The notes under the pieces: generated by a model | Told to the model about the DNA's origin: nothing | The model's input: the letters and a program-made list of their open reading frames with translations, nothing else | The model's database searches: none | IMG/VR virus record: IMGVR_UViG_3300025168_000745 | Span: 1 to 22,390 of that record | DNA: 22,390 nucleotides | Source of the DNA: a virus | Reading direction: 5' to 3' (one strand) | In this document: positions 521 to 22,211 of the stretch, piece by piece | Layout of the letters: every line of letters begins with the position of its first letter | How positions within the stretch are numbered: the stretch's first letter is position 1 | Translations under genes and position numbers: made by a program

Positions 521-600
521 TTACTATTAAAATAACATTCATATGAACTTTTTTTAAAATAAAATACCTATATTTGTAGAACACACTAAAACAAAACACT
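521..600 (+). promoter_or_regulatory. Promoter module copy 1 (box, T-tract, -7, A-rich leader)
   Basis: AATAAC (531-536) is followed by the palindromic 12-mer ATTCATATGAAC (537-548), a 7-T run (549-555), the -7 element TATATTTG (569-576; an exact TAnnTTTG match) and the leader CACTAAAACAAAACACT (584-600) that abuts the ATG at 601. The 12-mer centre lies 26.5 bp before the -7 element. The same order of elements recurs at 1470, 4296, 6476, 11836 and 22167. Confidence 0.75.
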
Positions 601-879
601 ATGAATATTCAGGAAAGTTATTACATAAGCGAATCAGAAACATTATTAGTTAATAATAAAAACATTTCTTACTTAGTAAATTACAATGTAATTAAAGAAA
701 CAGAAGAAGGTTTAGGATATGTTGATTATGATACACCATATGATTCTGATGAAACTACTACAGAAATAGAAATGATAGAATGTTTTATTTGCAATGAAGA
801 TTTAGAAAATACTTCAAATGTTTCTGAAAAAGATTTAGAAATTATAAAAGATTATTTAATAACTATTAACGAGCATTAA
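601..879 (+). CDS. Strongly acidic small protein, unknown function
   Basis: The protein is 92 aa with about 22 Asp/Glu, only four Lys and no Arg, so it is very negatively charged. It has no transmembrane segment. Two cysteines lie in the stretch ECFICNED (CxxC-like), which is too little for a zinc finger on its own. It is the first gene after a strong-looking promoter module and starts exactly at the end of the A-rich leader, which fixes the start. One base separates its stop from the next start (881). A first-expressed, highly acidic small protein ahead of a methyltransferase gene invites comparison with DNA-mimic anti-defence proteins such as Ocr, but that is only inference. No family is recognised. 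Confidence 0.65.
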   Translation: MNIQESYYISESETLLVNNKNISYLVNYNVIKETEEGLGYVDYDTPYDSDETTTEIEMIECFICNEDLENTSNVSEKDLEIIKDYLITINEH

Positions 880-880
880 G

Positions 881-1186
881 ATGAACTTAGAAAAACAAAT
901 AGAAGGATTAATTAAGGAATATAAAGACTATGGTAAAAATAGTCTTCCTTATGATATTCTTAGAGCTAAGGCAGTAGTAGAAATAGTAGAACTAATTGAA
1001 AAGAATATAGAAATACTTAAAGAAAGAATTTACTTTCATAAATGGCACGATAAAAAAAGAATTTACATTTTAAATAAATCTATGGATAGACTAGAACAAA
1101 GAAAACAAAATGCAGTTAATAATTTACTAAAACCAAATAAAAATGAAACAGTACAGGCAAAAAGATTTTATTCATCTTATAGCTAA
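881..1186 (+). CDS. Hypothetical helical protein
   Basis: The protein is 101 aa, rich in Lys, Glu, Ile and Leu, and predicted by eye to be almost entirely helical, with a possible coiled coil over residues 1-85 (e.g. VVEIVELIEKNIEILKERIY). The C-terminal quarter is basic. It follows the acidic 92-aa protein by one base and overlaps the next gene by 44 bases in another frame, so all three belong to one operon. No family is recognised. The basic tail and helical body could bind nucleic acid or a partner protein; nothing in the sequence decides this. Confidence 0.6.
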   Translation: MNLEKQIEGLIKEYKDYGKNSLPYDILRAKAVVEIVELIEKNIEILKERIYFHKWHDKKRIYILNKSMDRLEQRKQNAVNNLLKPNKNETVQAKRFYSSYS

Positions 1187-1469
1187 GTCTAAAGATGCAA
1201 CATTAACAGAATTAGCTGGAGTTCTAGATTTAGAATTAAGCTCCTTTAGGGTAACATTAGAACGTAGCAATTTAATGTTGCACCAGTTCCTAACAATCTA
1301 TAAATACTTATATGGTGAAGAGTACAAAACAGATAGTTATTTTTTAGATATAATGCGTGAGCTTTATAATTTTACTTTAAAACAATATGTAGAAGCTATG
1401 GCATTAGATGAAGGGCAAAAAGTTATAGTAAAGCTTTACAGAAAAACTAAGATTCAATTAATAAACTAA
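1143..1469 (+). CDS. Small protein with a possible helix-turn-helix
   Basis: This 108-aa protein has a segment at about residues 10-45 (LIAKSKDATLTELAGVLDL, then ELSSFRVTLERSN) that has the spacing of an HTH: helix, small residue plus turn, recognition helix. The rest is helical (FLTIYKYLYGEEY...). The start at 1143 lies 44 bases inside the preceding gene. Beginning later would remove the HTH-like part, so the long form is preferred. It could be an early transcription regulator of this phage, but the HTH match is by eye only and an unrelated helical protein is possible. A non-coding gap with promoter module copy 2 follows. Confidence 0.55.
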   Translation: MKQYRQKDFIHLIAKSKDATLTELAGVLDLELSSFRVTLERSNLMLHQFLTIYKYLYGEEYKTDSYFLDIMRELYNFTLKQYVEAMALDEGQKVIVKLYRKTKIQLIN

Positions 1470-1564
1470 TTTAGAACCATTATAAATAAGGTTTAATTAA
1501 ACTTTTTTTAAATTATAACACAAATAAATAAGTAATTTCACCAAACACTAAAACAAAACAATTT
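1470..1564 (+). promoter_or_regulatory. Promoter module copy 2, with operator-like palindrome
   Basis: TTTAGAA-CCA-TTATAAA (1470-1486; one mismatch from a perfect 7-3-7 palindrome) runs into AATAAG and the perfect 12-bp palindrome GTTTAATTAAAC (1491-1502). Then come a 7-T run (1503-1509), a -7-like TAATTTCA (1533-1540) and the leader CACTAAAACAAAACA (1546-1560). The 12-mer centre is 36.5 bp before the -7 element. It drives the helicase-methyltransferase gene at 1565. Confidence 0.7.
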
Positions 1565-3745
1565 ATGGAGTATAAAGATTTCTTAAAAACAAAAGAGAAA
1601 AGTCATATATCAAGTGGTTTTGATATAGAAGAAGATAAACTAAATAATAGTTTATTTGACTTTCAAAAATTTACAGTTAAAATAGCACTTAAAAAAGGTA
1701 GATTTGCAGTATTTGCCGATTGTGGTTTAGGTAAAACATTAATGCAGTTAAGCTGGGCTGAAGAAGTATTTAAACACACTAGTAAAAAAGTTTTATTATT
1801 AGCTCCATTAGCAGTAGTAGAACAAACTAAAAGAGAAGCTATAAAGTTTAACATTAACTTAGATAGCTTTGATATTACAAATTATGAGCAGCTTAAAAAT
1901 ACTGATACTTCTATTTATTCAGGTGTAGTATTAGATGAATCAAGTATTTTGAAAGGTAGAGATGGTAAATTATCAAGATATATTATTGATACTTTTAAAT
2001 TTACTCCATATAAATTAGCTTGTACTGCTACTCCATCTCCAAACGATCATATGGAATTAGGACAGCATTCTGAGTTCTTAGGTGTTATGTCTTACTTAGA
2101 AATGTTAGCTATGTATTTTGTTCATGATGGTGGAGAAACTTCTAAATGGAGATTAAGAAAACATGCTAAAGATGATTTTTGGAAATTTGCTATGACTTGG
2201 GCTATTGCTATTGATAATCCTAAAACATTAGGATTTAATCATGATGGTTATGATTTACCTGAAATAGAATATATAGAACATACTATACCAGTTGAAAATT
2301 TAACTAATTCATTATTTGGAGATGTTTCTGTATCTGCTACTGAAATAAATAAAGATCTAAGAAGAAGTTTACAAAATAGACTTAATAAAACTAATGAGAT
2401 AGTAAATAACAATCCTGATGAACAGTTTATAATATGGGGATTGCAAAATGCAGAAACAGATTCTTTAAATAAGTTAATAGATGAATCTGTTAATGTACAA
2501 GGTTCTGATAAGCCTGAAGTAAAAGCTAATAATTTAAATGGATTTGCTAGAGAAGAGTTTAAAAGATTAATAACTAAAACATCAATAGCATCTTTTGGTA
2601 TGAATTACCAACAATGCCATAATATGGTTTTTTGTTCTTATGATTTTAAATTCGAAGCTTTTTATCAAGCTGTTAGGAGATGTTATAGATTCGGACAAAC
2701 AGAAAAAGTAAAAGTACATTTATTAGTTCCTGAATCACAGAAAAACGTAAGACAATCAATTTTAGAAAAAGAAAAAAAACACTTTCAAATGATTAAAGAA
2801 ATGAGTAATTATTCAGCTAATACAGATTATAAAACTGCTGTATCAAAAGTTAAAATAACAAATAAAGAAATAGTAACAGATAACTATTCTGTATTTAATG
2901 GAGATTGTGTACAGACTCTACAACAACTACCTGATAACTGTGCTGATGTTTCAGTTTTTAGCCCTCCATTTGCTGAACTATATGTTTATAGTGATAAGAA
3001 GGAAGATATGGGTAATGTTGCTAATTATAAACAGTTTGAGAATCATTTTAAATACCTTATTCCTGAATTAAAAAGAGTTGTTAAAGATGGTAGAATAGTT
3101 GCTGTTCATTGTATGGATCTACCAATACAAAAAGGTAAAGAAGGTTTTATAGGTTTGAGAGATTTTTCAGGAATGTTAATTGATTGGTTTACTGATCAAG
3201 GTTTTATTTATCATTCAAGAGCTACAATATGGAAAAACCCAGTAACAGAAATGCAAAGAACTAAAGCATTAGGATTACTACATAAAACAATTAAAAAAGA
3301 TAGCTCTATGAGTAGAGTAGGTATTCCTGATTATGTTTTATTTTTTAGAAATGAAGGAGAAAATTTAACTCCTATAACTCATCAAGATAAAGATGAAACT
3401 AAATCTGATTATTTACCTGTAGATTTATGGCAAAAATATGCATCTCCTATTTGGTATGATGTTGACTATAAAAGAACATTACAATATACTACTGCAAGAG
3501 ATAATAATGATGAAAAGCATATATGCCCTTTACAATTAGATACAATTGAAAGAGTATTACATTTATATTCTAATGAAGGAGAAACAGTTTTAAGTCCATT
3601 TGGTGGAATAGGTTCTGAAGGATATCAAGCTCTTAAAATGAATAGAAAATCTATTAGCGTAGAATTAAAAGAGTCATATTTTGAAATTAATAAAAAGAAT
3701 CATAAAGCAGCAGTTTTAGAACAATCTGCATTAACATTATTCTAA
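1565..3745 (+). CDS. SNF2-family helicase fused to a DNA methyltransferase
   Basis: This is a 726-aa two-domain protein. Residues about 25-410 are an SNF2-type ATPase: motif I GLGKT (54-58), Ia LLLAPLAVVEQT (77-88), motif II DESS (124-127), motif III TATP (154-157), and motif V/VI ending QAVRRCYRFGQ (368-378). Residues about 440-726 are a beta-class amino-methyltransferase: catalytic SPPF (466-469) comes first and the SAM-binding SPFGGIGSEG (677-686) comes last, with the usual NGDC lead-in at 445-448. SPPF fits N4-cytosine or N6-adenine methylation. No nuclease domain is visible, so it is not a complete type I/III-like restriction enzyme. A translocating methyltransferase that protects phage DNA is the likeliest role; P1 DarB also joins helicase and methyltransferase domains, but is far larger. 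The start follows leader copy 2; the stop overlaps the MazG start (TAATG). Confidence 0.9.
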   Translation: MEYKDFLKTKEKSHISSGFDIEEDKLNNSLFDFQKFTVKIALKKGRFAVFADCGLGKTLMQLSWAEEVFKHTSKKVLLLAPLAVVEQTKREAIKFNINLDSFDITNYEQLKNTDTSIYSGVVLDESSILKGRDGKLSRYIIDTFKFTPYKLACTATPSPNDHMELGQHSEFLGVMSYLEMLAMYFVHDGGETSKWRLRKHAKDDFWKFAMTWAIAIDNPKTLGFNHDGYDLPEIEYIEHTIPVENLTNSLFGDVSVSATEINKDLRRSLQNRLNKTNEIVNNNPDEQFIIWGLQNAETDSLNKLIDESVNVQGSDKPEVKANNLNGFAREEFKRLITKTSIASFGMNYQQCHNMVFCSYDFKFEAFYQAVRRCYRFGQTEKVKVHLLVPESQKNVRQSILEKEKKHFQMIKEMSNYSANTDYKTAVSKVKITNKEIVTDNYSVFNGDCVQTLQQLPDNCADVSVFSPPFAELYVYSDKKEDMGNVANYKQFENHFKYLIPELKRVVKDGRIVAVHCMDLPIQKGKEGFIGLRDFSGMLIDWFTDQGFIYHSRATIWKNPVTEMQRTKALGLLHKTIKKDSSMSRVGIPDYVLFFRNEGENLTPITHQDKDETKSDYLPVDLWQKYASPIWYDVDYKRTLQYTTARDNNDEKHICPLQLDTIERVLHLYSNEGETVLSPFGGIGSEGYQALKMNRKSISVELKESYFEINKKNHKAAVLEQSALTLF

Positions 3746-4050
3746 TGAAAGAGTTAATAGAAGATAATTATAAAACTATAGTAGATAGAGGGTGCATAAA
3801 GCCCTCTACTACTTACATAGAGTTTATAGATAAACTAGATGAAGAAGTAAAAGAATTTAAAACTGCTTTAGACTGGTGGACTAGGAAAGATAGCTTAGGT
3901 TTTAAGCCTATGCACATTTCAGTATGTGAAGAGTTAGCAGATGTTATAATGGTATGTTTAAACTTTGCTAAACATCATGATATAGATATTCAGCAGGAAA
4001 TAAAAAACAAAATTAAAATAAACGAACAAAGAGCAAAAGATGGAAAATAA
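3745..4050 (+). CDS. MazG-like nucleotide pyrophosphohydrolase (1)
   Basis: This 101-aa, all-alpha protein matches the MazG/NTP-PPase metal site: EEVKEF (33-38) is the ExxE helix and CEELADVIMVCLNFAKHHDI (61-80) is the second ExxD helix. Such enzymes hydrolyse (d)NTPs to the monophosphate and pyrophosphate. In phages they may remove unwanted nucleotides or lower alarmone levels, but the substrate cannot be read from sequence. The start overlaps the methyltransferase stop by one base (TAATG), which shows translational coupling. The 3' end overlaps the next gene by 11 bases. A second, different MazG-like gene lies at 20780. Confidence 0.85.
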   Translation: MKELIEDNYKTIVDRGCIKPSTTYIEFIDKLDEEVKEFKTALDWWTRKDSLGFKPMHISVCEELADVIMVCLNFAKHHDIDIQQEIKNKIKINEQRAKDGK

Positions 4051-4291
4051 AAAAATAGTTTTAGAAAGTAATATAATGTTAGCTTTAATGAAAGCAACTA
4101 TAGAACAGTCAGAGCATTTAAGAGGAGAATTAAAACAAAAGCCTAAACAAGTTTTTAATAGGTGGAATAATATGGGTAATTGTTTATTAGATGAATTAGA
4201 AAAAAGAAATGTAGTTAATGAAGAATATTTAGATCAATTAACTGATATAATACACGATGTATTACATGAAGTAAGAAAAAACAGTATTTAG
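4040..4291 (+). CDS. Hypothetical small helical protein
   Basis: This 83-aa soluble protein is mostly alpha-helical by composition (e.g. LMKATIEQSEHLRGELKQKP, then LLDELEKRNVVNEEYLDQL). It overlaps the MazG gene by 11 bases and ends the operon that began at 1565; the next promoter module starts at about 4296. No family is recognised. Its tight coupling to the pyrophosphohydrolase suggests joint expression but does not prove a shared function. Confidence 0.65.
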   Translation: MENKKIVLESNIMLALMKATIEQSEHLRGELKQKPKQVFNRWNNMGNCLLDELEKRNVVNEEYLDQLTDIIHDVLHEVRKNSI

Positions 4292-4295
4292 TTAA

Positions 4296-4371
4296 TTACT
4301 TTAAATAAAGTTCAAACGGTATTATTTTAATAGTAAATAACTATCTTTACCAAACACTAAAACAAAACACT
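4296..4371 (+). promoter_or_regulatory. Promoter module copy 3 (recombination operon)
   Basis: AATAAA (4304-4309) is followed by a degenerate 12-mer GTTCAAACGGTA (4310-4321), a short T-rich run (4325-4328), the -7-like TATCTTTA (4342-4349), and the leader CACTAAAACAAAACACT (4355-4371) ending at the ATG of 4372. The 12-mer centre is again 26.5 bp upstream of the -7 element. The palindrome is weaker here than in copies 1, 2 and 4. Confidence 0.65.
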
Positions 4372-4926
4372 ATGAAAAATTTATTTAAAGCATTAGCAGG
4401 ATTTCAGCAAGAAGTACCGGCTATTCATCAAGGAACTAAAGGATATGGATATACATATTCAGATTTAAAAACCATTTTTAAAGTTATCAATCCAATATTA
4501 AAAAAGCATGATTTAGGATTTACACAACTAATAGAAGGAACTAACATTAAAACTATTATTTTTCATACTGAAAGTGGTGAAAGTATTGAAAGTATTACAG
4601 AAATACCACAAGGAATAACTTTAAAAGGTATGAATACTTTTCAGGTTAATGGATCAGGAATAACATACTACAGAAGATATTCTTTATCTAGTGCTTTAGG
4701 ATTAGTAACAGATGTTGATTCAGATGCAGATGGTACTGAGGTTAAAAAAACAGATAGCGAAATAGCAATAGAATACAATGCTTTAATTAAAACTGCTAAA
4801 GCTAACTTAAAAGCTTGCAAAGATATTGATTCACTTGTTACTGCATGGAAAGCATTGCAATCTAATCAGCAAAGTAATAAAGAAGTAATGGCTTTAAAAG
4901 ATTCATTAAAAACAAAATTATCTTAA
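4372..4926 (+). CDS. erf: ERF-family single-strand annealing protein
   Basis: This 184-aa protein has the hallmarks of the ERF recombinase family: GYGYTYSDLKTIFKVINPIL (24-43) near the N-terminus and GSGITYYRRYSLSSALGLVT (94-113) followed by an acidic DVDSDADGTE stretch. ERF proteins load on single-stranded DNA and anneal complementary strands during phage recombination and genome circularisation. The next gene, two bases downstream, is a YqaJ/lambda-type exonuclease, the usual partner that makes the single strands. A DUF3127 SSB-like gene follows. The start is fixed by leader copy 3 that ends at its ATG. The C-terminal 60 residues are helical and probably oligomerisation or partner-binding; this last point is inference. 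Confidence 0.88.
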   Translation: MKNLFKALAGFQQEVPAIHQGTKGYGYTYSDLKTIFKVINPILKKHDLGFTQLIEGTNIKTIIFHTESGESIESITEIPQGITLKGMNTFQVNGSGITYYRRYSLSSALGLVTDVDSDADGTEVKKTDSEIAIEYNALIKTAKANLKACKDIDSLVTAWKALQSNQQSNKEVMALKDSLKTKLS

Positions 4927-4927
4927 T

Positions 4928-5602
4928 ATGATGTATATAGACTATGATTTAAAACAAGGTTCTGAAGAATGGCATGAACTAAAAAATGCTAAAATTGGAG
5001 GAACTAGAGCTAAATCAGTACAGGTTAAAAAATCAATTACTGAAGCTGTAATATTTGACGAAGTAATGAGTGAAAGAAACACCTTCTTTAATTATGAAGA
5101 AGGATTTACTTCTGAAGCTATGCAACGTGGAATTGATTTAGAACCTTTAGCAATTAAAGAAGTAACTAAAGAAACTGGTGTAATATTTAAAGATGCTGGT
5201 TGGATTAGTAGAAATAATTATCATGGTCATTCTCCTGATGGTATTTCATTATGCGAAAAGATAGGACTAGAAATTAAATGCCCTTCAGCTAAAGTACATA
5301 ACAGCTATGTAAGAGATAATAAATTACCTTTAGAGTATGTATGGCAAATAGTTAATTTTTTTGCAATGGATGAAAGCATAGAAAGATTATACTTCGCTTC
5401 CTTCAATCCTGATTACCTTCTAATGCCTTTATTCTTATTGGAAGTAACAAGGGAAAGCGTTATATTTACATCTAAAAAAGATAGTGGTATAGTATCTGAA
5501 TTAGCAGCAGATTTAAATAAAAATGTTGATGATCTAATATTAAAGATTAAGCAAGAAGAAAAAGTAATAATACAAAGGATTTCAAATAAATTAAAATTTT
5601 AA
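4928..5602 (+). CDS. YqaJ-like/lambda-type recombination exonuclease
   Basis: This 224-aa PD-(D/E)XK nuclease of the YqaJ viral recombinase family has QGSEEWHELKNAKIGGT (10-26), MQRGIDLEPLA (65-75), the catalytic HSPDG (D104) and LEIKCPS (E115, K117), then YVWQIVNFFA (137-146) with the conserved Gln. It should digest one strand of duplex DNA to give single-stranded tails for the ERF protein encoded just upstream. The two genes are two bases apart. The start is ATGATG; either Met could be used. The full set of nuclease residues is present, so it looks active. Confidence 0.9.
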   Translation: MMYIDYDLKQGSEEWHELKNAKIGGTRAKSVQVKKSITEAVIFDEVMSERNTFFNYEEGFTSEAMQRGIDLEPLAIKEVTKETGVIFKDAGWISRNNYHGHSPDGISLCEKIGLEIKCPSAKVHNSYVRDNKLPLEYVWQIVNFFAMDESIERLYFASFNPDYLLMPLFLLEVTRESVIFTSKKDSGIVSELAADLNKNVDDLILKIKQEEKVIIQRISNKLKF

Positions 5603-5621
5603 CAACTAAACATTTACAATT

Positions 5622-5960
5622 ATGAGCAATTTAACATTTACAGGAACAGTTAACAAATTAAAAGAAGTACAAGTAATATCTGATAAGTTCAGAAAGCAAG
5701 AAATAATATTAACTGATAACCATGAAAAGTACCCTAAGTTTATAAACTTTGAGGCAACTAATGATAACTGCGATTTATTAGCAGGAATTAAAGAAGGGCA
5801 GGAAGTAGAAGTTAATTTTAACTTAGAAGGTAGATTATGGACTAACCCAAAAACAAACGAAGAAAGATGTTTTAATACTTTAAGAATTTGGAAAATAAAC
5901 ATTAAAGGTTCTGAACCAGCAGAAACTAAACCTAATGTAACTTCTGATTTACCATTTTAA
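5622..5960 (+). CDS. DUF3127-like single-strand DNA-binding protein with DLPF tail
   Basis: The 112-aa protein resembles DUF3127, an OB-fold-like family common in Bacteroidetes and their phages: an N-terminal beta-rich LTFTGTVNKLKEVQVIS, then FRKQEIILTD, then FINFEATNDNCDLLAGIKEG, then a strand with WTNPKT. The last 18 residues are a flexible, Pro/Glu-containing linker ending in SDLPF. That ending is the protein-binding tip of bacterial SSB proteins. The likely role is coating phage single-stranded DNA and recruiting tail-binding partners during ERF/exonuclease recombination and replication. It lies 19 bases after the exonuclease gene and nine bases before the DUF4494 gene. The DNA-binding role is inferred from family and context. 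Confidence 0.8.
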   Translation: MSNLTFTGTVNKLKEVQVISDKFRKQEIILTDNHEKYPKFINFEATNDNCDLLAGIKEGQEVEVNFNLEGRLWTNPKTNEERCFNTLRIWKINIKGSEPAETKPNVTSDLPF

Positions 5961-5969
5961 TTTTAAGCT

Positions 5970-6401: not shown

Positions 6402-6440
6402 TAAAAGCATTGTAATAGCTGCACATATTACAATTATAAA

Positions 6441-6474
6441 GCCCTGTTAGATTAAGTTTTAACAGGGTTTTCTT
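6441..6474 (+). terminator. Rho-independent terminator of the recombination operon
   Basis: CCCTGTTA (6442-6449) pairs perfectly with TAACAGGG (6460-6467) around a 10-base loop, followed by TTTTCTT. Promoter module copy 4 begins immediately after it at 6476. Confidence 0.9.
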
Positions 6475-6475
6475 A

Positions 6476-6569
6476 TTTAGAATCATTATAAATAACGATC
6501 ATATGAACTTTTTTCAATCGTAGTTAGAAATAAATAACTATATTTACATACACACTAAAACAAAACGAT
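6476..6569 (+). promoter_or_regulatory. Promoter module copy 4, with operator-like palindrome
   Basis: TTTAGAA-TCA-TTATAAA (6476-6492) runs into AATAAC and GATCATATGAAC (6497-6508). Then come six T (6509-6514), the -7 element TATATTTA (6539-6546) and the leader CACTAAAACAAAACGAT (6553-6569). The 12-mer centre is 36.5 bp upstream of the -7 element, as in copy 2, and the operator centre is 55 bp upstream in both. Confidence 0.75.
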
Positions 6570-6869
6570 ATGAAAAGCAAGTTATTTAAAGCAGCATGGC
6601 AATTAGTAAGAACATTAGGAATCTCTATTTCTGAAGCATTAAAAAAATCATGGAAAGCTTATAAGCTTAAATTGAAATTAAAAGCAGGAAAGGTTAACTT
6701 TACATTTAAGAAGAAATCAGGAGAGCTTAGAAAAGCAAAAGGAACATTAAAAGCTGAATTAATCAATTACGATTTTAAAGGAAGCACTAAAGATAATTTT
6801 TCTGTTATTGCTTACTGGGATTTAGAAGCTGAAGGATTTAGAAGTTTTAAAATAGAAAATTTAGTATAA
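6570..6869 (+). CDS. Basic WYL_2/Sm-like SH3 fold protein
   Basis: The 99-aa protein has a Lys-rich helical N-terminus (1-38) followed by a beta-barrel-like domain: GKVNFTFKKKSGELRKAKGT (39-58), ELINYDF, then VIAYWDLEAEGFRSFKIENL near the end. This matches by eye the WYL_2 (formerly DUF2693) Sm-like SH3 fold, a small family frequent in phages and mobile elements of Bacteroidetes. The role is unknown; the basic N-terminus would suit nucleic-acid binding. Its own promoter module precedes it and a tight UUCG-loop terminator follows 7 bases after the stop, so it can be a single-gene transcription unit, suggesting high or specially timed expression. Confidence 0.7.
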   Translation: MKSKLFKAAWQLVRTLGISISEALKKSWKAYKLKLKLKAGKVNFTFKKKSGELRKAKGTLKAELINYDFKGSTKDNFSVIAYWDLEAEGFRSFKIENLV

Positions 6870-6874
6870 ACTTA

Positions 6875-6893: not shown

Positions 6894-6900
6894 AAAAAAA

Positions 6901-7490: not shown

Positions 7491-7495
7491 AAGAT

Positions 7496-8417: not shown

Positions 8418-8520
8418 AACACTGTTTAGGCTTAATCTAATGGCTTTTATTATTAAATCTATATATTGTATTGACTGTATATTTTTAAAGTGCTTAAATC
8501 TAAAGTTTTATATACTGTTA

Positions 8521-8660
8521 TTTTTTCAACGTTTGTTAAATTCGTTTCAACGTTTTTAACGTTTGTTAAATTCGTTAAATTTTTTTCAACGTTTTTAACT
8601 GTTATATGTTATTGTTATTGTTATTGTAATATGTAATTGTAATATAATATATTTACAATA
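8521..8660 (+). other. Candidate replication origin with AACGTT iterons and AT-rich tract
   Basis: The longest gene-free stretch of the window (8392-8744) holds four copies of the palindrome AACGTT, at 8528, 8549, 8558 and 8588. They sit in two longer direct repeats: AACGTTTGTTAAATTCGTT (8528-8546 and 8558-8576, 30 bp apart) and TTTCAACGTTTTTAAC (8545-8560 and 8584-8599). A nearly pure A/T stretch follows, with TTATTG three times in tandem (8609-8626) and TAATATAATATATTTAC. Iterons next to an easily melted tract, just upstream of an HTH protein, a replication initiator-like gene and a RecA/DnaB-fold ATPase, are the classic arrangement of a phage origin. The proximal part, 8418-8520, shows only AT-rich sequence. 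Confidence 0.6.
8624..8654 (+). promoter_or_regulatory. Possible promoter in the origin region
   Basis: TTG (8624-8626), 20 bp, then TATATTTA (8647-8654), which fits the Bacteroidetes TTG-N19/20-TAnnTTTG pattern. Chance matches are common in such AT-rich DNA. Confidence 0.3.
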
Positions 8661-11835: not shown

Positions 11836-11932
11836 TTTCTAAAATAAAAATAACATTCGATTGATCTTTTTTTGTTTTTAAATTAGATTTTTATCAAGTG
11901 TTAACGTATCTTTATAAAAAAAACAAAACGCT
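11836..11932 (+). promoter_or_regulatory. Promoter module copy 5
   Basis: AATAAC (11849-11854) is followed by the 12-mer ATTCGATTGATC (11855-11866; imperfect palindrome), a 7-T run (11867-11873), the -7-like TATCTTTA (11907-11914) and an A-rich leader (11916-11932) ending AAAACGCT before the ATG at 11933. The 12-mer centre is 46.5 bp upstream of the -7 element, ten bp more than copies 2 and 4 and twenty more than copies 1 and 3. Confidence 0.65.
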
Positions 11933-12178
11933 ATGAAAAATATTTTAAACAATGACACAGTAAAAACTAAAGAAGTTTTTCAAACAAAAAATACAGTTAA
12001 CATCTCTTATGCAGACGAGAGATACTTTGCAAAAGTTAACGATAAAAACGAATATGTTATTTTAACTCATTCAAACCCGTTAGGAACGACTGATTTTAAA
12101 AATGAATCAGAATTTATATCACATTTAGAAGGTGATAAAAAAGTTGGTAATTTTATAGCCAATACAGGTAGGTATTAA
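11933..12178 (+). CDS. Hypothetical small protein
   Basis: The 81-aa soluble protein has a repeated polar pattern and a strand-rich centre (TVNISYADERYFAKVNDKNE, YVILTHSNPL) and a C-terminal helix-like region. It has its own promoter module and starts exactly at the leader end. It is followed after 18 bases by a 31-aa membrane peptide gene. No family is recognised. Confidence 0.65.
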   Translation: MKNILNNDTVKTKEVFQTKNTVNISYADERYFAKVNDKNEYVILTHSNPLGTTDFKNESEFISHLEGDKKVGNFIANTGRY

Positions 12179-12912: not shown

Positions 12913-12964
12913 TTATAACGGTTAGTGTAATAGGCGTTTTAATGCCTTTTACACCTTGTTAGGC
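12913..12964 (+). repeat. Imperfect palindrome, copy B (attC/REP-like)
   Basis: TTATAAC (12913-12919) opens the element. GTGTAA (12925-12930) pairs with TTACAC (12949-12954) and GGC (12933-12935) with GCC (12944-12946), around a GTTTTAAT loop; it closes with GTTAGGC (12958-12964). The ends and the GGC/GCC core recur in copy A (6901-6943). GTTAGGC fits the integron R' box GTTRRRY, but the opposite end does not fit RYYYAAC. Confidence 0.5.
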
Positions 12965-12983
12965 ACTTTTAATTTAATATGAT

Positions 12984-13625
12984 ATGAAGATATTAAACAT
13001 TTACGCTTGTTTAGGTGGTAACCGTTACAAGTGGAATGAAATAAAAGAAGATATAAAAGTAACTGCTGTAGAATTAGATCCTGAAGCTGCAAGATTATAT
13101 CAAGAAAGATTCCCAGATGATACGGTAATAATTGCAGATGCACATCAATATTTATTAGACCATTATAAAGAGTTTGATTTTATATGGAGTTCTCCACCTT
13201 GTCCTAGTCATTCTAAGGCTAGATTTGCAAGAAGAAATACAACAGAAGCAAAATATCCAGACTTAAAACTATATGAAGAAATTATATTTTTAGATAAATG
13301 GTTTAAAGGTAAATATGTAGTGGAAAATGTTATACCATACTATCAACCTTTAATTGAAGCAAAAAAAAGAGGTAGACATTTATACTGGACTAACTTTAAT
13401 TTACCTAATGATGTAGGAGCTAGAAAGAGTAGTATAATGGAGGGTAAAGATGAAATAAATAGATGGTGTAAGTTTCATGAATATGACTTTAAAAAATATA
13501 AAGGAAAACAAAGAACTGATAAAATAGCTAGAAACTTAGTAGATTATGAAGTAGGTAAAACAATATTAGAAACTGCTTTAGGAATTATGAAACAGAAAAA
13601 TATTAAACAAACTGAACTATTTTAA
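12984..13625 (+). CDS. Compact C5-cytosine DNA methyltransferase
   Basis: The 213-aa Dcm-type enzyme is about two-thirds of the usual length. Motif I is ILNIYACLGGNRYKW (3-17), a variant of the usual LDLFxGxGG. The catalytic motif IV is SSPPCPSHSKAR (69-80), with Cys73. Motif VI is VVENVIPYY (112-120), the FWTN/H-type region is GRHLYWTNFNLP (130-141), and NLVDYEVGKTILETAL (184-199) resembles motifs IX-X. Only a short target-recognition region can fit. The specificity is unknown, but the catalytic core looks whole. It probably methylates phage DNA to escape host restriction. It stands alone between palindrome copy B and a strong terminator, with no restriction enzyme partner. Confidence 0.85.
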   Translation: MKILNIYACLGGNRYKWNEIKEDIKVTAVELDPEAARLYQERFPDDTVIIADAHQYLLDHYKEFDFIWSSPPCPSHSKARFARRNTTEAKYPDLKLYEEIIFLDKWFKGKYVVENVIPYYQPLIEAKKRGRHLYWTNFNLPNDVGARKSSIMEGKDEINRWCKFHEYDFKKYKGKQRTDKIARNLVDYEVGKTILETALGIMKQKNIKQTELF

Positions 13626-16050: not shown

Positions 16051-16068
16051 TTTATTTTATATTTAACT

Positions 16069-17235
16069 ATGAAACAAACGCTTAAGGATTATGAAGAAGA
16101 AGTAGTACAGTTATCTAAACAGGGGAATAGTTCAGAAGTAATTAAAAAGCATTTAAAAGAAAAGTATAATTTTGATGCTTTATCCAATGGTATTAGAAAG
16201 TTTTTAAGTTTAAGAGGTGTATCAGCTACTCAATTACAAGGTGGAAATACTTTTGAAAAAAAATTACAAAACAGTAATTTTCAAATGCCTGAAAATTGGG
16301 CTTATGGATGGTTAAAAGGTAAAGATGCTTCTGTATTTATTAGGAATACAAAAGGATTAATACCTTATGATGAAATGAGAAAGGAATTTAAGGAAGAAAT
16401 GAGCAAATACTCTCCTAAATACCTAAAGATAGATAGAGATCCAATAAAAGATAAGCATTTATTAGTAGTTGATATAGCAGATTTACACGTAGGAAAACTT
16501 GCTGAAGCTTCTGAAACTGGAGATAAATACAATTCTAATATAGCAAAGCAAAGAGCCATTAGAGGTATTGAAGGAATATTAAAAAAGGCTTCAGGTTTTG
16601 AGATTGAAAAGATACTTTTTATAATTGGTAATGATGTTTTACACGTAGATAATGCTAATAAATCAACTACTACAGGAACAATACAGGATGTAGATGGATC
16701 ATGGCATAAGAACTACATAATAGCTAGAAATGTTTACATAGAGGCTATTAATATGCTTTTAGAGGTTGCAGATGTTCATATAGTTCATAATCCTTCTAAT
16801 CATGACTTTATAAGTGGTTTTATGTTAGCTGATTCTATTTACTGCTGGTTTAGAAAAAGTAAAAATGTTACGTTTAATGTTACGAATAAACATAGAAAGT
16901 ATTACAAATATGGAAGGAATTTAATTAGTTCTAGTCATGGAGATGGTGCAAAAATGGCTGATATGCCTTTATTAATGGCAAATGAAGCTAAACAAGAATG
17001 GGCTGAAACAGATTATAGATATGTTTATCTTCATCACATACATCATAAAGATGTCACTAAATTCAAAAGTGGTAAAGACTATCAAGGTGTAACAGTAGAA
17101 TATATTAGAAGCCCTTCAGGTACTGATGCATGGCACAATAAAAAAGGCTATTGCCATTCACCTAAAGCTATAGAAGCTTTTATACATCATAAAGACTATG
17201 GACAGTGTGCAAGGTTAACTCATTTATTCAAATAA
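16069..17235 (+). CDS. Calcineurin-like metallophosphoesterase
   Basis: This is a 388-aa protein. Residues 1-50 are a helical HTH-like section (QGNSSEVIKKHLKEKYNFDA) and about 130-350 are a two-metal phosphoesterase: DIADLHVGK (135-143), GNDVLH (187-192), NPSNHD (241-246), SSHGDG (288-293) and LHHIHH (321-326). All the usual metal-ligand positions (D-x-H, GND, N-H, H, H-x-H) are present. The substrate is unknown: phosphodiester DNA ends, nucleotide signals or an SbcD/Mre11-like role are all possible. It directly follows the large terminase gene, where a portal gene would often be, so it may be packaged with or assist DNA packaging; this is inference. TATATTTA sits four bases before the start, probably by chance. 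Confidence 0.82.
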   Translation: MKQTLKDYEEEVVQLSKQGNSSEVIKKHLKEKYNFDALSNGIRKFLSLRGVSATQLQGGNTFEKKLQNSNFQMPENWAYGWLKGKDASVFIRNTKGLIPYDEMRKEFKEEMSKYSPKYLKIDRDPIKDKHLLVVDIADLHVGKLAEASETGDKYNSNIAKQRAIRGIEGILKKASGFEIEKILFIIGNDVLHVDNANKSTTTGTIQDVDGSWHKNYIIARNVYIEAINMLLEVADVHIVHNPSNHDFISGFMLADSIYCWFRKSKNVTFNVTNKHRKYYKYGRNLISSSHGDGAKMADMPLLMANEAKQEWAETDYRYVYLHHIHHKDVTKFKSGKDYQGVTVEYIRSPSGTDAWHNKKGYCHSPKAIEAFIHHKDYGQCARLTHLFK

Positions 17236-17254
17236 TAATTATTATATTTACAAC

Positions 17255-17464
17255 ATGGAAAAGAAAAAAGAAACACCGAAAAAAATTAATAAAGTAGTTA
17301 AAGCTCCAGTTAAAAAAAGTATATCTGAAAAGATAGATTCTTTAGTTTTAGAAATGCAAGATGTAATTAAGAATGACAGAAAAGAATTAAATACTTCTTC
17401 ATGTGCTTCTATTAATAAAGCTATTTCAGATTTAACAAGAATATCTAAAAACTTAAAGCGTTAA
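17255..17464 (+). CDS. Lysine-rich small protein
   Basis: The 69-aa protein has a strongly basic N-terminal 25 residues (MEKKKETPKKINKVVKAPVK) and a helical rest (SEKIDSLVLEMQDVIKNDRK). It starts 19 bases after the phosphoesterase stop, and its TAA overlaps the next ATG by one base (TAATG), so it is coupled to the frameshift gene. It may bind DNA or neutralise charge in the virion; no family is recognised. Confidence 0.6.
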   Translation: MEKKKETPKKINKVVKAPVKKSISEKIDSLVLEMQDVIKNDRKELNTSSCASINKAISDLTRISKNLKR

Positions 17465-18249
17465 TGATAAAAGTAACCATATTAGAAAAAGAATATAAGG
17501 TTAGAAACGATTGGCAAGACAACACTATAAACCAACTAGAAAAACCACAGGAATATATTAATAACCTTCCTAAATGGTTAGAAAGTTATATCTATAAAGG
17601 TTCTGAAACTCCTGTATCTGAATCTAAGTTATTAGATTTTTATATTGATTGGATAGAATTGTTTTCTGATATTCCTAGAAACCTTTTAGAAGAAGTTTTA
17701 GCTGTTAAGGATGAAGAAAATTCTATAGTATTTTTATTTGATTCTGTATCTAAGTTCTTAGGAGAACCAACACAAGAAGAAATAGAACCAAATGATACTA
17801 TCACATTAAGAGGTACTAAATATACTTTAATAGAATCTGTTAAAACTGCTGGAGGTATTGAAAAACTTTTAGGTGGTGCTACTTATAAACACTTTTCAGA
17901 AGCAAATGCTTTAGCTCATTTATTTCAAAATAAGAATTATAGAAAGTGGGAGTACATTGCAAGAATAACGGCTATACTTTTTAGAGCAGATGCAAATGAG
18001 CAGTACAATGAAGATACTATAGATAGAAGGTCTAAAGAGTTTGGAAAATTAACTATTTCAGAGGCTTACAAAGGTTATTTTTTTTTGTCAAATTCTTTGA
18101 ACAACTTACAAAAATCTACTCTAACATCTTTTCAGGAAAATCAGGTAAACCAGTTAACAGTTTATCGGAAACTATTGTTAAAAGTGTATACTATGAAATT
18201 AAAGCTTATGAACTTGCTGAGAAAGGTATTTACAGCAAAGAAGGCTTAA
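17464..18249 (+). CDS. Tail-assembly-chaperone-like protein, zero-frame product
   Basis: This is the 261-aa zero-frame product. Residues 1-207 look like a folded acidic helical protein (MIKVTILEKEYKVRNDWQDN, YIDWIELFSDIPRNLLEEV, TAGGIEKLLGGATYKHFSEA, YRKWEYIARITAILFRADAN). After codon 207 the reading passes through nine T and a G. From there the zero-frame tail becomes basic and low in complexity (to LRKVFTAKKA), while the -1 frame gives a well-formed acidic-to-neutral continuation. The heptamer T-TTT-TTG (18081-18087) is a standard -1 slippery site. Tail assembly chaperones often make two products this way, as with lambda G/GT, but I do not recognise the family and there is no tape-measure gene next door. 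A fixed or sequencing indel in the T-run would also explain it. Confidence 0.6.
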   Translation: MIKVTILEKEYKVRNDWQDNTINQLEKPQEYINNLPKWLESYIYKGSETPVSESKLLDFYIDWIELFSDIPRNLLEEVLAVKDEENSIVFLFDSVSKFLGEPTQEEIEPNDTITLRGTKYTLIESVKTAGGIEKLLGGATYKHFSEANALAHLFQNKNYRKWEYIARITAILFRADANEQYNEDTIDRRSKEFGKLTISEAYKGYFFLSNSLNNLQKSTLTSFQENQVNQLTVYRKLLLKVYTMKLKLMNLLRKVFTAKKA

Positions 18250-18383
18250 CACCTTTAGAAAGTGTTTATAGTACCAATGTATGGCAGGTATTTCAATTTA
18301 TAAGTATTGAAACAGCACAAGATACTTTAAAGTCTGAAATGCAAGAAATGGCACATAAGGATGCTAAAAGAGGTAGAAAGTAA
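18087..18383 (+). CDS. -1 frameshift extension of the 17464 gene
   Basis: The -1 frame is open from 18036 to a TAA at 18381-18383 and has no ATG upstream of the slip, nor any until the last 15 codons, so it cannot start alone. From 18087 it encodes 98 residues: VKFFEQLTKIYSNIFSGKSG, KPVNSLSETIVKSVYYEIKA, YELAEKGIYSKEGLTPLESV, then NVWQVFQFISIETAQDTL and a basic end KDAKRGRK. Joined to zero-frame residues 1-208, this makes a 306-aa protein. It reads as a real protein and fills the 150 bases between the zero-frame stop and the next gene (18402), which would otherwise be empty. The mechanism is inferred. Confidence 0.6.
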   Translation, partial: VKFFEQLTKIYSNIFSGKSGKPVNSLSETIVKSVYYEIKAYELAEKGIYSKEGLTPLESVYSTNVWQVFQFISIETAQDTLKSEMQEMAHKDAKRGRK

Positions 18384-18384
18384 T

Positions 18385-18401
18385 AATTAAAACAAAACAA
18401 A
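18385..18401 (+). promoter_or_regulatory. A-rich translation leader
   Basis: ATTAAAACAAAACAAA precedes the ATG at 18402 with no -7 element. It is another promoter-free use of the AAAACAAAAC motif, seen also at 9735-9753, and supports the chosen start. Confidence 0.45.
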
Positions 18402-19124
18402 ATGAAAAAAGTATTAATTTCATGCCCTACTGCACAGGCTAAAGATTATTGCGTAGATGAATTTATAGAGCAAATTAAAAGCTTTACATATCCTTTATAT
18501 GATATTTTTATATTAGATAATTCACCTGATAAAAACCATGTTTATAAGTTTTGGAATAATGGAATAAAAGCAGTTCATGAACCTTTTAATGGTAATTTTA
18601 AAACCTTTTCAGGACGTGAAGAACTAGCAAGGCATCAAAACATTATTAGAAACTACTTTTTAAATGGTGATTACGATTATCTTTTAATGATTGAAAGTGA
18701 TGTTTTTACCGGTGAAAGTATAATAGAAAACTTAGTATCTTATGCAGATGTTTATAATGCTGGATCTGTAACAGTTACTTATGAGATCAAAAAAGAAGAA
18801 GAAGAAGTTTTATGCTTAACCTCAACAGTAGATCAATTAGGAGTAAGAAGTGAAAAATTATTAAACCGTTCTGTAGGACACGATATAATGGGGAAAGGTA
18901 CATTACCTTTAAACCATTTGTTAAATGATACAGAAGCAAAGATAACAGCAACTGGAATAGGCTGTACTTTGTTCACTAGAGATGTAATGCAAAACATAGA
19001 ATTTAGAGTAGATAAAAAACTATCACAAACTGCATATAGTGATACTTATATATTCACAGATATAAAAAAAGCAGGTTATGAAGTTTTAATAAATAGTAAT
19101 TTAATTTGTATACATAAAAAATAA
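18402..19124 (+). CDS. Glycosyltransferase, GT-A fold (GT2-like)
   Basis: The 240-aa protein has the start of a nucleotide-sugar fold, VLISCPTAQAKDYCVDEFIE (4-23), then YDIFILDNSPD (33-43), EELARHQNIIRNY (73-85) and the metal-binding YLLMIESDVFTG (93-104), in which ESD stands for the usual DxD. The later TGIGCTLFTRDVM and DTYIFTDIKKAGYEVLINS match the second half of GT2-like enzymes. It should transfer a sugar from a nucleotide donor to an unknown acceptor. It is placed in the structural region, so the target could be a virion protein or modified DNA rather than cell-wall polymer. No signal peptide or membrane helix is visible, so it acts in the cytoplasm. Confidence 0.75.
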   Translation: MKKVLISCPTAQAKDYCVDEFIEQIKSFTYPLYDIFILDNSPDKNHVYKFWNNGIKAVHEPFNGNFKTFSGREELARHQNIIRNYFLNGDYDYLLMIESDVFTGESIIENLVSYADVYNAGSVTVTYEIKKEEEEVLCLTSTVDQLGVRSEKLLNRSVGHDIMGKGTLPLNHLLNDTEAKITATGIGCTLFTRDVMQNIEFRVDKKLSQTAYSDTYIFTDIKKAGYEVLINSNLICIHKK

Positions 19125-19129
19125 ATAAC

Positions 19130-19630
19130 ATGAGCAGTTTAGCAACAAAAGAAGTATTAGAAAAAGAGTTAGTAAGATTTAAAGAAAGAGTTAATTTCTT
19201 AAATGATTACATTAAAGATTTATCTAAGGATAAAAATAACTTTGAAGCACTTGATAAGGCTTATAAATTAGATATTGAAAAGGAATTTAAAGAACATTTA
19301 ATTAATCAAAGAAATTCACAGATAGATCAGATTAATAAACAGGATGAATTAAAAGCAAATGCAATTAAAGAGATTCCTGCAATGTTAGAAGATTGTGAAA
19401 AAGTTGTTTTGCGAATTGCAAATGATATTGAAGAACTAAGAAAGTCTAATAAACTAAAAGGAGAAGCTAAAAAGCAAAGAAGCGAAGCTATTAAAAACCT
19501 ATTAGGAACTAAAGAACAAGTAGAAACTATTTTAAAATCTATTAGTAAAAAGTTCAAACAAGATCCAAACAATACAGGAATATTAGCAGACTTTAGGCAA
19601 TTAAACGAAATTAAAAAAATAATTAAGTAA
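19130..19630 (+). CDS. Coiled-coil protein, unknown
   Basis: The 166-aa protein is almost entirely helical with a long heptad pattern (KEVLEKELVRFKERVNFLND; KVVLRIANDIEELRKSNKLK; GTKEQVETILKSISKKF). Such proteins at this point of a phage genome often serve as scaffolds, linkers or tail components, but nothing identifies this one. It starts five bases after the glycosyltransferase stop. Its TAA overlaps the next ATG (TAATG), coupling it to a 29-aa membrane peptide gene. Confidence 0.65.
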   Translation: MSSLATKEVLEKELVRFKERVNFLNDYIKDLSKDKNNFEALDKAYKLDIEKEFKEHLINQRNSQIDQINKQDELKANAIKEIPAMLEDCEKVVLRIANDIEELRKSNKLKGEAKKQRSEAIKNLLGTKEQVETILKSISKKFKQDPNNTGILADFRQLNEIKKIIK

Positions 19631-19719
19631 TGAGTTTTTTCACTTTATTACTGTGTTTATGTATAATTAGAATATTCTGTAAATTAGTATCTAACTTTTT
19701 TAAAGACAATAACCTATAA
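19630..19719 (+). CDS. Tiny hydrophobic peptide (29 aa)
   Basis: ATG at 19630 overlaps the previous stop (TAATG), TAA at 19717-19719. MSFFTLLLCLCIIRIFCKLV is a single membrane-spanning segment with three cysteines, then a polar end. Translational overlap supports it; the short length does not. Confidence 0.4.
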   Translation: MSFFTLLLCLCIIRIFCKLVSNFFKDNNL

Positions 19720-19799
19720 ACAAAAAAACATAAATAATGAAATTTAGCGTGGTTTTTATCGTGCTTTTTTTTATATTAGCAACTAATAGATTAAATAAT

Positions 19800-20036
19800 A
19801 TGGCTACAATTACAAATAAAACTGATGGTATAGAGATATTAGATTCACATGGAGATACTTATTTTATTAAGTATGCGAATTGTAAACTAATAAAAAGAGA
19901 TGTTTTAAATATCTATGACAATTCAGAAAGAAGAATAGGAGCAGCTCCAATAAGATTAACATTTGCTGAAGTTACAAGTCCATCTACTGCTAATTTAGAT
20001 GCTTTATATACAACAGTTAGAAATTACATAGATTAA
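19800..20036 (+). CDS. Small structural domain protein (first copy of a tandem pair)
   Basis: From the ATG at 19800 the 78-aa product begins MATITNKTDGIEILDSHGDT and ends SPSTANLDALYTTVRNYID. It is a paralogue of the first 80 residues of the next protein (20042), which begins MATITNKTSGLEIVFAGATT. The bases around both starts are also nearly identical (AGATTAAATAATATGGCTAC). An in-frame ATG at 19737 would add 21 residues, MKFSVVFIVLFFILATNRLNN, that look like a signal sequence, but the shared start context favours 19800. The pair probably arose by tandem duplication. The protein may be a single-domain virion component; no enzymatic motif is present. Confidence 0.65.
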   Translation: MATITNKTDGIEILDSHGDTYFIKYANCKLIKRDVLNIYDNSERRIGAAPIRLTFAEVTSPSTANLDALYTTVRNYID

Positions 20037-20041
20037 ATAAT

Positions 20042-20770
20042 ATGGCTACGATTACAAATAAAACAAGTGGATTAGAGATAGTTTTTGCAGGTGCAACAAC
20101 ATATATTAAGCATGGAAATGTTAAGTTATTAAAAAGAGGTGTTAACCTTAATATATATGATGATTCAGATGGTGATGGTAATCAAAGAGGGCAGGTTTTT
20201 ATGACTATTGCCTATAGTGAGGTTACAAGTCCTGCTACTGCTAATATAGATGCACTTTATGATACTGTTAGAGGTTATATAGATGTTTCTTCAGGTGGTG
20301 GAGGTACAGATGCTGATGCAGTTCATGTTAATGTAGCAAATGAGATAACTGCAATAACTGAAAAAACAACAGTAGATAATATTGATGAATTTATTATAGA
20401 AGATAGTGGAGCTTTATTTGTAAAGAAAAGCATTAAAAGAGCTAACATAGTTAAGCCTATTAATAATAATACTACAACTGCAACTACATTAACACCTAAT
20501 GTAGATTTAAATGATCAGGAAACAGTAACAGATTTAGCTAGTGCAATGACAATAGCAGAACCTACTGGAACTGTTTCTAGTGGTATGAAGTTGATGTTAA
20601 GAATAGCAGACGATGGAACAGGTAGAGCTTTAACATGGAATGGTATATTTAGAGCAGTAGGAGTAACACTACCAACTACAACAACAGCTAATAAAATTTT
20701 ATATGTTGGATGTATTTATAGTGAGCAAGGTTCTAAATGGGATGTAGTAGCAATTAAAGAAGAAGTTTAA
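20042..20770 (+). CDS. Virion structural/tail fibre-type protein
   Basis: This is a 242-aa protein. Residues 1-80 repeat the domain encoded by the preceding gene; a Gly-rich hinge follows (SSGGGGTDAD). The C-terminal 100 residues (NTTTATTLTPNVDLNDQETV, then ALTWNGIFRAVGVTLPTTTT, ANKILYVGCIYSEQGSKWDV) match a beta-rich domain widespread at the ends of phage tail-fibre and baseplate proteins. It is probably on the virion surface and possibly involved in receptor contact. Five bases separate it from the upstream paralogue. There is no signal peptide or catalytic motif. The family call for the C-terminal domain is from memory of its pattern. Confidence 0.7.
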   Translation: MATITNKTSGLEIVFAGATTYIKHGNVKLLKRGVNLNIYDDSDGDGNQRGQVFMTIAYSEVTSPATANIDALYDTVRGYIDVSSGGGGTDADAVHVNVANEITAITEKTTVDNIDEFIIEDSGALFVKKSIKRANIVKPINNNTTTATTLTPNVDLNDQETVTDLASAMTIAEPTGTVSSGMKLMLRIADDGTGRALTWNGIFRAVGVTLPTTTTANKILYVGCIYSEQGSKWDVVAIKEEV

Positions 20771-20779
20771 AACAATAAT

Positions 20780-21166
20780 ATGAGCGATTTAACAAAATTT
20801 GTTAATCTAACTTCTAAATGGTCTGAAGATAGAAACTTAATTAAAGGAAGTACAGCAAAAGATCAAACTTTAAAACTTATTCAAGAAGTTGGTGAGTTAT
20901 CGGATAGTATTTGCAAAGGTAAAAACCCTGTAGATGATATAGGAGATTGCTTAGTAGTTTTAAATAATTTGGCTTTACAACATGGCTTAACTTTATCTGA
21001 ATGCTTAGAACATTCTTATAATGATATTAAGGATAGAAAAGGAATTATGAAAGATGGCATTTTTATAAAAGAAGCAGATTTATCTTTAGAAAATATGTTA
21101 GAATCTAGTTTAGAACAAATGCTAGAATCTAGTTGTAATTTTAAAAAAAATACTAAAACATTATGA
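20780..21166 (+). CDS. MazG-like nucleotide pyrophosphohydrolase (2)
   Basis: The 128-aa protein has QEVGELSDSI (35-44) as the first metal-binding helix and DDIGDCLVVLNNLALQHGL (52-70) as the second: the full MazG-like site. It is clearly different from the enzyme at 3745, and its C-terminal 40 residues are a unique extension with a short repeat (MLESSLEQMLESS). It should hydrolyse an NTP-type substrate; the target is unknown. It lies inside the virion-gene region and overlaps the next gene by four bases (ATGA), an unusual place for a nucleotide enzyme. Confidence 0.8.
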   Translation: MSDLTKFVNLTSKWSEDRNLIKGSTAKDQTLKLIQEVGELSDSICKGKNPVDDIGDCLVVLNNLALQHGLTLSECLEHSYNDIKDRKGIMKDGIFIKEADLSLENMLESSLEQMLESSCNFKKNTKTL

Positions 21167-21444
21167 TAACAATAATTAGTAAAATAGAATTAGAGGGAAC
21201 TGATAATTTAAAATATTCAGATGTTGGATATACTACAGATGTTTCAGTAATTAATGAAATAAATGAACAGTATGATTTTACTTTAGGAGCTTTTTTAGGA
21301 GAAAATAGAACTAAATTAGAAATAGGTGAAGTTAGTATAAGTAATTTTTTCGCTAATACTTCTTATGTTAATGAGGCTAGAACACAAGTAGAAAATACTG
21401 ATACTTTAGCATTAGTTGAAATAAATGATATAAACGAATTATAA
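21163..21444 (+). CDS. Hypothetical small acidic protein
   Basis: The 93-aa soluble acidic protein starts within the stop of the MazG gene (ATGA). It has mixed strands and turns (ISKIELEGTDNLKYSDVGYT, FTLGAFLGENRTKLEIG) and ends in ALVEINDINEL. It contains no recognised domain; the beta-rich composition and its neighbours suggest a minor structural or chaperone role. Confidence 0.6.
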   Translation: MITIISKIELEGTDNLKYSDVGYTTDVSVINEINEQYDFTLGAFLGENRTKLEIGEVSISNFFANTSYVNEARTQVENTDTLALVEINDINEL

Positions 21445-21445
21445 A

Positions 21446-22111
21446 ATGGCAGTACCAACTAAAGGAAATGCTACAAGTGCTAATCCAACTCCTGGAGCAA
21501 ATTTTAAAACACAAAACCACACCCAAAATACGGGTAATGATGGTTTAATTATTGCTCAATTTACTATGAGTAATTCTAGAACTTATTCAAGTTGTACTTA
21601 TGGTGGTGTTGCTATGACTCAATTATACCAAATTAATAGAAGTGGTTTATCTCAAAGAATGGCTTTTTTCTATTTAGAGAATCCACCAACGGGAAACAAT
21701 CAATTAAGAGTTAATTTTAATAACTCACAATGGAATCCAATTAGTATGCATATTAGAAGCTTTACTAATTCAGGTGGTATAGGTGCATCTACTAGAGTAG
21801 GAGGACAATCTACACCAAACAATGGTAGCTTAACAGTAGAAGATGATTCTTTAATAATGATTACTTCATCTTCTATAAATGCTATATCAACTCAACAAAT
21901 ACCAACAGGAACAAATAGAACTTTTACAAGTCATAATACTAATAGACAAGTAGCAACAGGTGCAATTAGTGCAGATGTTGGTCATAGTGCTGGTAGTATT
22001 CCTTTACAATCTACATCAACATTTGGAAGTATAACTTTAGATAGAACAGAAATAAAAGGTTTATCTTCTTCTGTTGATACTTCAGGTGGTGATTTCTTTG
22101 CAATGATGTAA
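21446..22111 (+). CDS. Beta-rich virion surface protein
   Basis: The 221-aa protein is rich in Ser, Thr, Asn and Gly and has almost no Lys, typical of beta-sandwich surface proteins. TYGGVAMTQLYQI (about 52-64), MAFFYLENPPTGNNQLRVNF (72-91), then a long TSSS/STS-rich half. The YGGVAMT...PPTG pattern is shared by a domain I know from phage tail and host adhesin proteins. It is likely on the virion, perhaps on the tail or as a decoration. It starts one base after the preceding stop. A terminator follows. No catalytic residues are evident. Confidence 0.65.
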   Translation: MAVPTKGNATSANPTPGANFKTQNHTQNTGNDGLIIAQFTMSNSRTYSSCTYGGVAMTQLYQINRSGLSQRMAFFYLENPPTGNNQLRVNFNNSQWNPISMHIRSFTNSGGIGASTRVGGQSTPNNGSLTVEDDSLIMITSSSINAISTQQIPTGTNRTFTSHNTNRQVATGAISADVGHSAGSIPLQSTSTFGSITLDRTEIKGLSSSVDTSGGDFFAMM

Positions 22112-22136
22112 TAAATACATAAAAATGATTAATTAA

Positions 22137-22164
22137 AGAGGGCTTAAAAGCCTTCTTTTTTTAT
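22137..22164 (+). terminator. Rho-independent terminator after the surface-protein gene
   Basis: AGAGGGCTT (22137-22145) pairs with AAGCCTTCT (22148-22156), one G-T pair and a minimal loop, followed by at least eight T. Promoter module copy 6 begins three bases later. Confidence 0.8.
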
Positions 22165-22166
22165 TA

Positions 22167-22211
22167 TTTAGAATCGTTCTAAATAGCATTTTTTTTTGTA
22201 TATTTAAAAAC
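22167..22211 (+). promoter_or_regulatory. Promoter module copy 6, with a perfect operator palindrome
   Basis: TTTAGAA-TCG-TTCTAAA (22167-22183) is a perfect 7-3-7 inverted repeat, the best of the three copies. It runs into AATAGC, a T-run (22189-22197) and the -7-like TATATTTA (22199-22206); ATG follows at 22212. The operator centre is 24 bp from the -7 element, against 55 bp in copies 2 and 4, a difference of 31 bp or three helical turns. Confidence 0.65.

Follow-up and report, generated by a model that had tools for sequence, protein, structure and literature searches.

The promoters of a virus of Bacteroidota bacteria were found to carry up to two palindromes, A and B, which keep whole helical turns to a -7 element of ordinary host type, and palindrome B matches a Fur box of Bacteroidota bacteria that has EMSA support. 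The reading in which host RNA polymerase would be contacted, at whole-turn spacings, by a phage regulator at A and by the host Fur protein at B has in our judgement an even chance of being correct. The analysed stretch of DNA (the window) was the complete IMG/VR record IMGVR_UViG_3300025168_000745 (22390 bp).

Promoters of the window and their two palindromes

The positions and distances of six promoters were counted anew in the sequence (Table 1), the distance of palindrome A being that between the 12-mer centre and the first base of the -7 element. The distances given in the original prediction (26.5, 36.5, 26.5, 36.5, 46.5 and 5.5 bp) were reproduced, the last of them in the earlier frame of reference. 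All six copies had been described as one module made of AATAA[CG], a shared 12-mer, a T-tract and TATMTTTR, and this description required revision. The 12-mer stands at promoters 1-5 (weakly in the copy at 4310) and is missing from the copy at 22167, which had been regarded as degenerate and is instead a promoter with palindrome B only. AATAA[CG] belongs to palindrome B, whose right arm it forms at promoters 2, 4 and 6. The -7 element at position 1533 is TAATTTCA rather than TATMTTTR. In place of the single upstream box that had been proposed there are two boxes: A, which is indeed phased, and B, which matches the host Fur box.

The consensus of palindrome A is GTTCAAATGAAC, followed by approximately 7 T. 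Palindrome B spans 23 bp (TTATTTAGAATNATTCTAAATAA) and has the 7-1-7 structure of a Fur-type repeat; promoters 2, 4 and 6 carry it, and promoters 1, 3 and 5 retain no more than a vestige. The arrangement of promoter 6, with B alone, recurs in the relatives G019, G020 and G022. The centres of B and A are 18.5 bp apart in most modules; in others the distance is 28.5 or 29.5 bp, about one turn more. The B to -7 distances fall at whole-turn positions of about 24, 45, 55, 65 and 76 bp.

The -7 elements fit the housekeeping TAnnTTTG motif of Bacteroidota, with TATATTTG, TATCTTTA and close variants as the best matches. Since this element is the ordinary one of Bacteroidota, there is no sign of a phage RNA polymerase factor, which had been offered as an alternative to an activator for the protein contacting the box; what stands of that proposal is a phased, putative regulatory site upstream of host-type promoters. 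A -33 element (TTTG, identified by eye and unscored) is visible in some copies, such as locus L167, and in others is degenerate or replaced by the T-tract. A generic promoter scan performed no better than on shuffled sequences, as expected for Bacteroidota.

Two of the assignments require comment. The A box of promoter 3 has a matrix score of 13.7, inside the range of shuffled sequences, and its position is kept in the relatives G020, G025 and G027. At promoter 5, a second -7 match (TAAATTAG, at 11879) has an equal score and would give an A to -7 distance of 18.5 bp. For the genes downstream, the operon of promoter 1 begins with a gene starting at 601, promoter 2 precedes a helicase-methylase gene at 1565, and the gene at 6570 encodes a WYL_2-domain protein (Pfam PF10902).

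Table 1. Promoter elements and candidate regulator gene in the window
Feature	Sequence	Position	Strand	Remarks
Promoter 1, palindrome A	ATTCATATGAAC	537..548	+	Matrix score 33.4; A to -7 26.5 bp
Promoter 1, T-tract after A		549-555		
Promoter 1, -7 element	TATATTTG	569..576	+	Best-scoring TAnnTTTG match
ORF1143 (108 aa), candidate A regulator, putative XRE/lambda-repressor-like fold		1143..1469	+	Conservation, model, Foldseek
Promoter 2, palindrome B, predicted Fur-type box	TAATTTAGAACCATTATAAATAA	1467..1489	+	B to -7 55 bp
Promoter 2, palindrome A	GTTTAATTAAAC	1491..1502	+	Matrix score 26.9; A to -7 36.5 bp
Promoter 2, T-tract after A		1503-1509		
Promoter 2, -7 element	TAATTTCA	1533..1540	+	Weak TAnnTTTG match
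Promoter 3, weak palindrome A	GTTCAAACGGTA	4310..4321	+	A to -7 26.5 bp
Promoter 3, -7 element	TATCTTTA	4342..4349	+	Upstream of ERF gene at 4372
Promoter 4, palindrome B	TTATTTAGAATCATTATAAATAA	6473..6495	+	B to -7 55 bp
Promoter 4, palindrome A with T-tract	GATCATATGAAC	6497..6508	+	Matrix score 30.6; A to -7 36.5 bp
Promoter 4, -7 element	TATATTTA	6539..6546	+	Upstream of gene at 6570
Promoter 5, palindrome A with T-tract	ATTCGATTGATC	11855..11866	+	Matrix score 31.4; A to -7 46.5 bp
Promoter 5, -7 element	TATCTTTA	11907..11914	+	Upstream of gene at 11933
Promoter 6, palindrome B alone	TTATTTAGAATCGTTCTAAATAG	22164..22186	+	B centre to -7 24 bp
Promoter 6, -7 element	TATATTTA	22199..22206	+	Upstream of gene at 22212, late region

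Two other non-coding stretches of the window were noted. Short direct AACGTTTGTTAAATTCGTT-type repeats lie at 8520-8600, before the replication genes, and may represent an origin or an array of operators. In front of a methyltransferase-like gene, a 63-bp intergenic stretch (12935-12997) shares 89% identity with DNA lying between two methyltransferase genes in Polaribacter phage P12002L; the overlapping segment 12910-12972 folds as a DNA hairpin which, by eye, recalls an integron attC site.

Spacing classes of palindrome A and a candidate binding protein

The helicase-methylase, the terminase and the ERF protein served as queries in protein searches that yielded related phage contigs. Palindrome A was located with a module matrix (25 columns, built from 15 seed copies), which replaced a loose half-site scan that was too noisy. 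Approximately 33 copies above 22 bits, the seeds among them, were obtained in 224 kb of DNA (17 contigs, comprising the window and its relatives), and the best score in three shuffled sets was 17.8 bits. For the distance measurements, the -7 element was picked by score and not by position. Across the window and its relatives, the A to -7 distances were 26.5-27.5, 36.5-37.5 or 44.5-47.5 bp: classes of about 10 bp rather than an even spread, as the original prediction had anticipated for related phages.

Orthologous promoters switch between these classes by whole helical turns. The promoter of the MNIQES-type gene has A at 26.5 bp in the window, G020 and G001 and at 36.5 bp in G028; that of the MKQIKLFNQ gene has it at 36.5 bp in G020 and 26.5 bp in G004; and that of the ERF gene, mostly at 26.5-27.5 bp, has it at 36.5 bp in G001. 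For the statistical assessment of the spacing, modules with look-alike spacers were removed, which left 15 dissimilar modules, and the tie at 11855 in the window was counted against phasing. The distances clustered with R = 0.89 (P ~5e-5 against uniform gaps and P ~5e-4 against shuffled spacers); the fitted period lay at the edge of the tested range and is therefore poorly determined. Modules without B show the same classes, thus A is phased in its own right. The module was absent upstream of the helicase-methylase gene in the relatives of that protein, and no spacings were obtained from them.

Strict A patterns were searched in viral, host and Bacteroidia collections; outside the phage family the matches were mostly chance-like, and no host regulon of A was seen. 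By these pattern searches, palindrome A appears specific to this virus family.

ORF1143, in the operon of promoter 1, is a candidate for the phage DNA-binding protein that would occupy A. It is the best conserved gene of that operon, with 75-98% identity wherever a contig covers the locus, and was found only in module-bearing contigs; this is weak evidence of linkage to the A module, as the module-bearing contigs are all related to one another. The predicted structure was HTH-like and its quality moderate (pLDDT 67.8, with higher values for residues 11-60). Almost all of its Foldseek matches were XRE proteins, none of them individually significant (best E 0.14). Pfam and PHROG gave no match to ORF1143, and it was not found in any named phage. 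The phage regulator that would bind A is most likely this XRE-like protein.

Palindrome B in host genomes and in unrelated phages

The Fur box of the flavobacterium Riemerella anatipestifer has been predicted as ATTTAGAATTATTCTAAAT, with EMSA support on four promoters (PMC5609570), and its core, ATTTAGAATNATTCTAAAT, is contained in palindrome B. In phage DNA, this core sits in promoters and is often distal and helically phased, which distinguishes B from the Riemerella box.

The 23-bp B pattern was present in 37 of 395 Bacteroidia genomes, and the reversed control pattern gave 0 matches. Behind B, genes were found for a sufA-type Fe-S biosynthesis protein, FeoAB, a TonB receptor, glutamyl-tRNA reductase (hemA), cytochromes c and a UbiA-family protein resembling heme O synthase; these iron-related genes are raw occurrences among 44 host loci, which also include non-iron genes. 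In the host genomes, the distance between B and a -7 match is 9-19 bp for the sufA-type, feoAB, TonB-receptor and DUF4856 genes, and 64-66 bp for several cytochrome c genes. At four host loci (L308, L321, L325 and L327), B is found 20-32 bp before genes resembling response regulators, of which the one at L308 was assigned by profile, to the LuxR type; a response regulator of Bacteroidia may be under Fur control.

A search of 42 phage records, of which many are fragments, revealed no Fur homologue. A phage-encoded Fur was accordingly dropped as the binder of B, and the host Fur protein is the likely one.

The viral B scan covered a sample of at least 119 stretches. Among the matches listed from outside the window family, the B to -7 distances peaked at 16-18, 23-27, 44-45, 54-56 and 64-67 bp. 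Over the range 20-80 bp, these listed matches were phased with a period of 10.4 bp (R 0.51; P ~2e-4, the floor of the test). The phase of the window family predicted the B positions of unrelated phages (z 6.4; P ~5e-5, again the test floor), and a second, small sample of B (n=13) pointed in the same direction without reaching significance (P ~0.08). In 1.46 Mb of phage DNA that had not been selected for B, a degenerate B core occurred 6 times, whereas 120 permuted palindromes occurred 0.07 times on average; the exact 15-bp core was too rare for counting, and the B box was absent from four named Bacteroidota phages.

Ten proteins were hand-picked for each position of B. The ten genes behind a proximal B include those for a portal, a major tail protein, a head protease and two tail fibres, and the ten behind a distal B encode small proteins without known function.

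Proposed mechanism and alternative explanations

In the mechanism that we favour, host RNA polymerase would use TAnnTTTG -7 promoters provided with up to two upstream operators, A being bound by a phage regulator (candidate ORF 1143-1469) and B by host Fur. The whole turns kept between A or B and the -7 element imply that the bound proteins would face the polymerase. At 26.5 bp, the A protein could make a class II-type contact beside the -33 region; at 36.5 or 46.5 bp, and likewise for a distal B, contacts of class I type would be made further upstream. By analogy with CRP, A and distal B would activate early promoters, although Fur is best known as a repressor. A B near the promoter core, as at the late genes, probably represses, as it would at the host iron genes. 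The boxes suggest that host iron status may control these viruses. The fullest version of this idea, in which host Fur would activate early promoters from a phased distal B and repress late structural ones from a proximal B, and so provide an iron-read temporal or environmental switch of infection in many Bacteroidota phages, we regard as rather doubtful.

An alternative for A is the operator of an XRE-type phage repressor that keeps the early promoters off, with the spacing classes set by repressor contacts. The lambda-repressor-like fold modelled for ORF1143 is in keeping with this, as are the operators of typical repressors, which are short palindromes of such a kind. However, at 36.5 and 46.5 bp A lies upstream of the promoter core, where simple occlusion would fail, and an integrase was not seen among the G020 gene starts listed; we consider this explanation unlikely. 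Much the same standing is given to a role of Fur at B limited to repression, or to B as a decoy that titrates Fur during replication, with the phase arising from polymerase-contact repression or another cause. In favour of this, B at the host sufA, feoAB and TonB-receptor genes overlaps the promoter core as a repressor site would, and B is enriched in phage DNA. Against this, a fixed phase to the -7 element would not be required of a pure decoy, B is tied to promoters, and a distal B at 44-67 bp cannot occlude the polymerase.

The spacing classes could also be a functionless inheritance from a few duplicated ancestral promoters, since several copies of equal spacing have similar spacers (hence the reduction to 15 dissimilar modules). 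This is highly improbable in view of the whole-turn switches at orthologous promoters, the unchanged classes of the modules without B and the phase of B shared by unrelated phages. Least credible is an intrinsic terminator of the upstream operon formed by A and its T-tract. An inverted repeat followed by about 7 T has the appearance of one, but three of four A boxes had a folding energy of 0 and the remaining one reached -2.3 kcal/mol, and separate terminators (-9.8, -15 and -12 kcal/mol) lie just upstream of promoters 1, 4 and 6, respectively. The terminator role was rejected on the folding energies.

Phased activator sites and Fur boxes are each already known. The class I and class II sites of the E. 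coli activator CRP are placed in whole-turn steps (about -41.5, -61.5, -71.5 and -82.5), and B likewise moves in steps of 20, 10 and 11 bp; the protein, the site and the sigma promoter type are different here, and activation is by analogy only. In phages P2 and P4, the phage activator Ogr/delta acts at a palindrome centred near -55, upstream of late promoters used by the host polymerase. The putative A factor would resemble it as a phage activator at an upstream palindrome, whereas A is unrelated in sequence, has three spacings and belongs to the replication region rather than to late genes. In Enterobacteria prophages, host Fur controls phage-borne accessory genes; host Fur would likewise act on phage-carried genes here (predicted), with its boxes instead at promoters of the replication region and of structural genes. 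Searches of open-licence papers brought up no account of Fur boxes, phased host boxes included, in phages of Bacteroidota. If the favoured mechanism is true, the transcription programme of a broad range of Bacteroidota phages includes host Fur, and their infection is linked to iron supply. The spacing classes also provide a natural data set for the study of activator contacts with RNA polymerase in a phylum whose promoters are unusual.

At three loci of the viral scan (L221, L256 and L257), a single B lies between divergent promoters, 23-24 bp from one -7 element and 44 bp from the other, and one protein bound to the shared box could act on both promoters.
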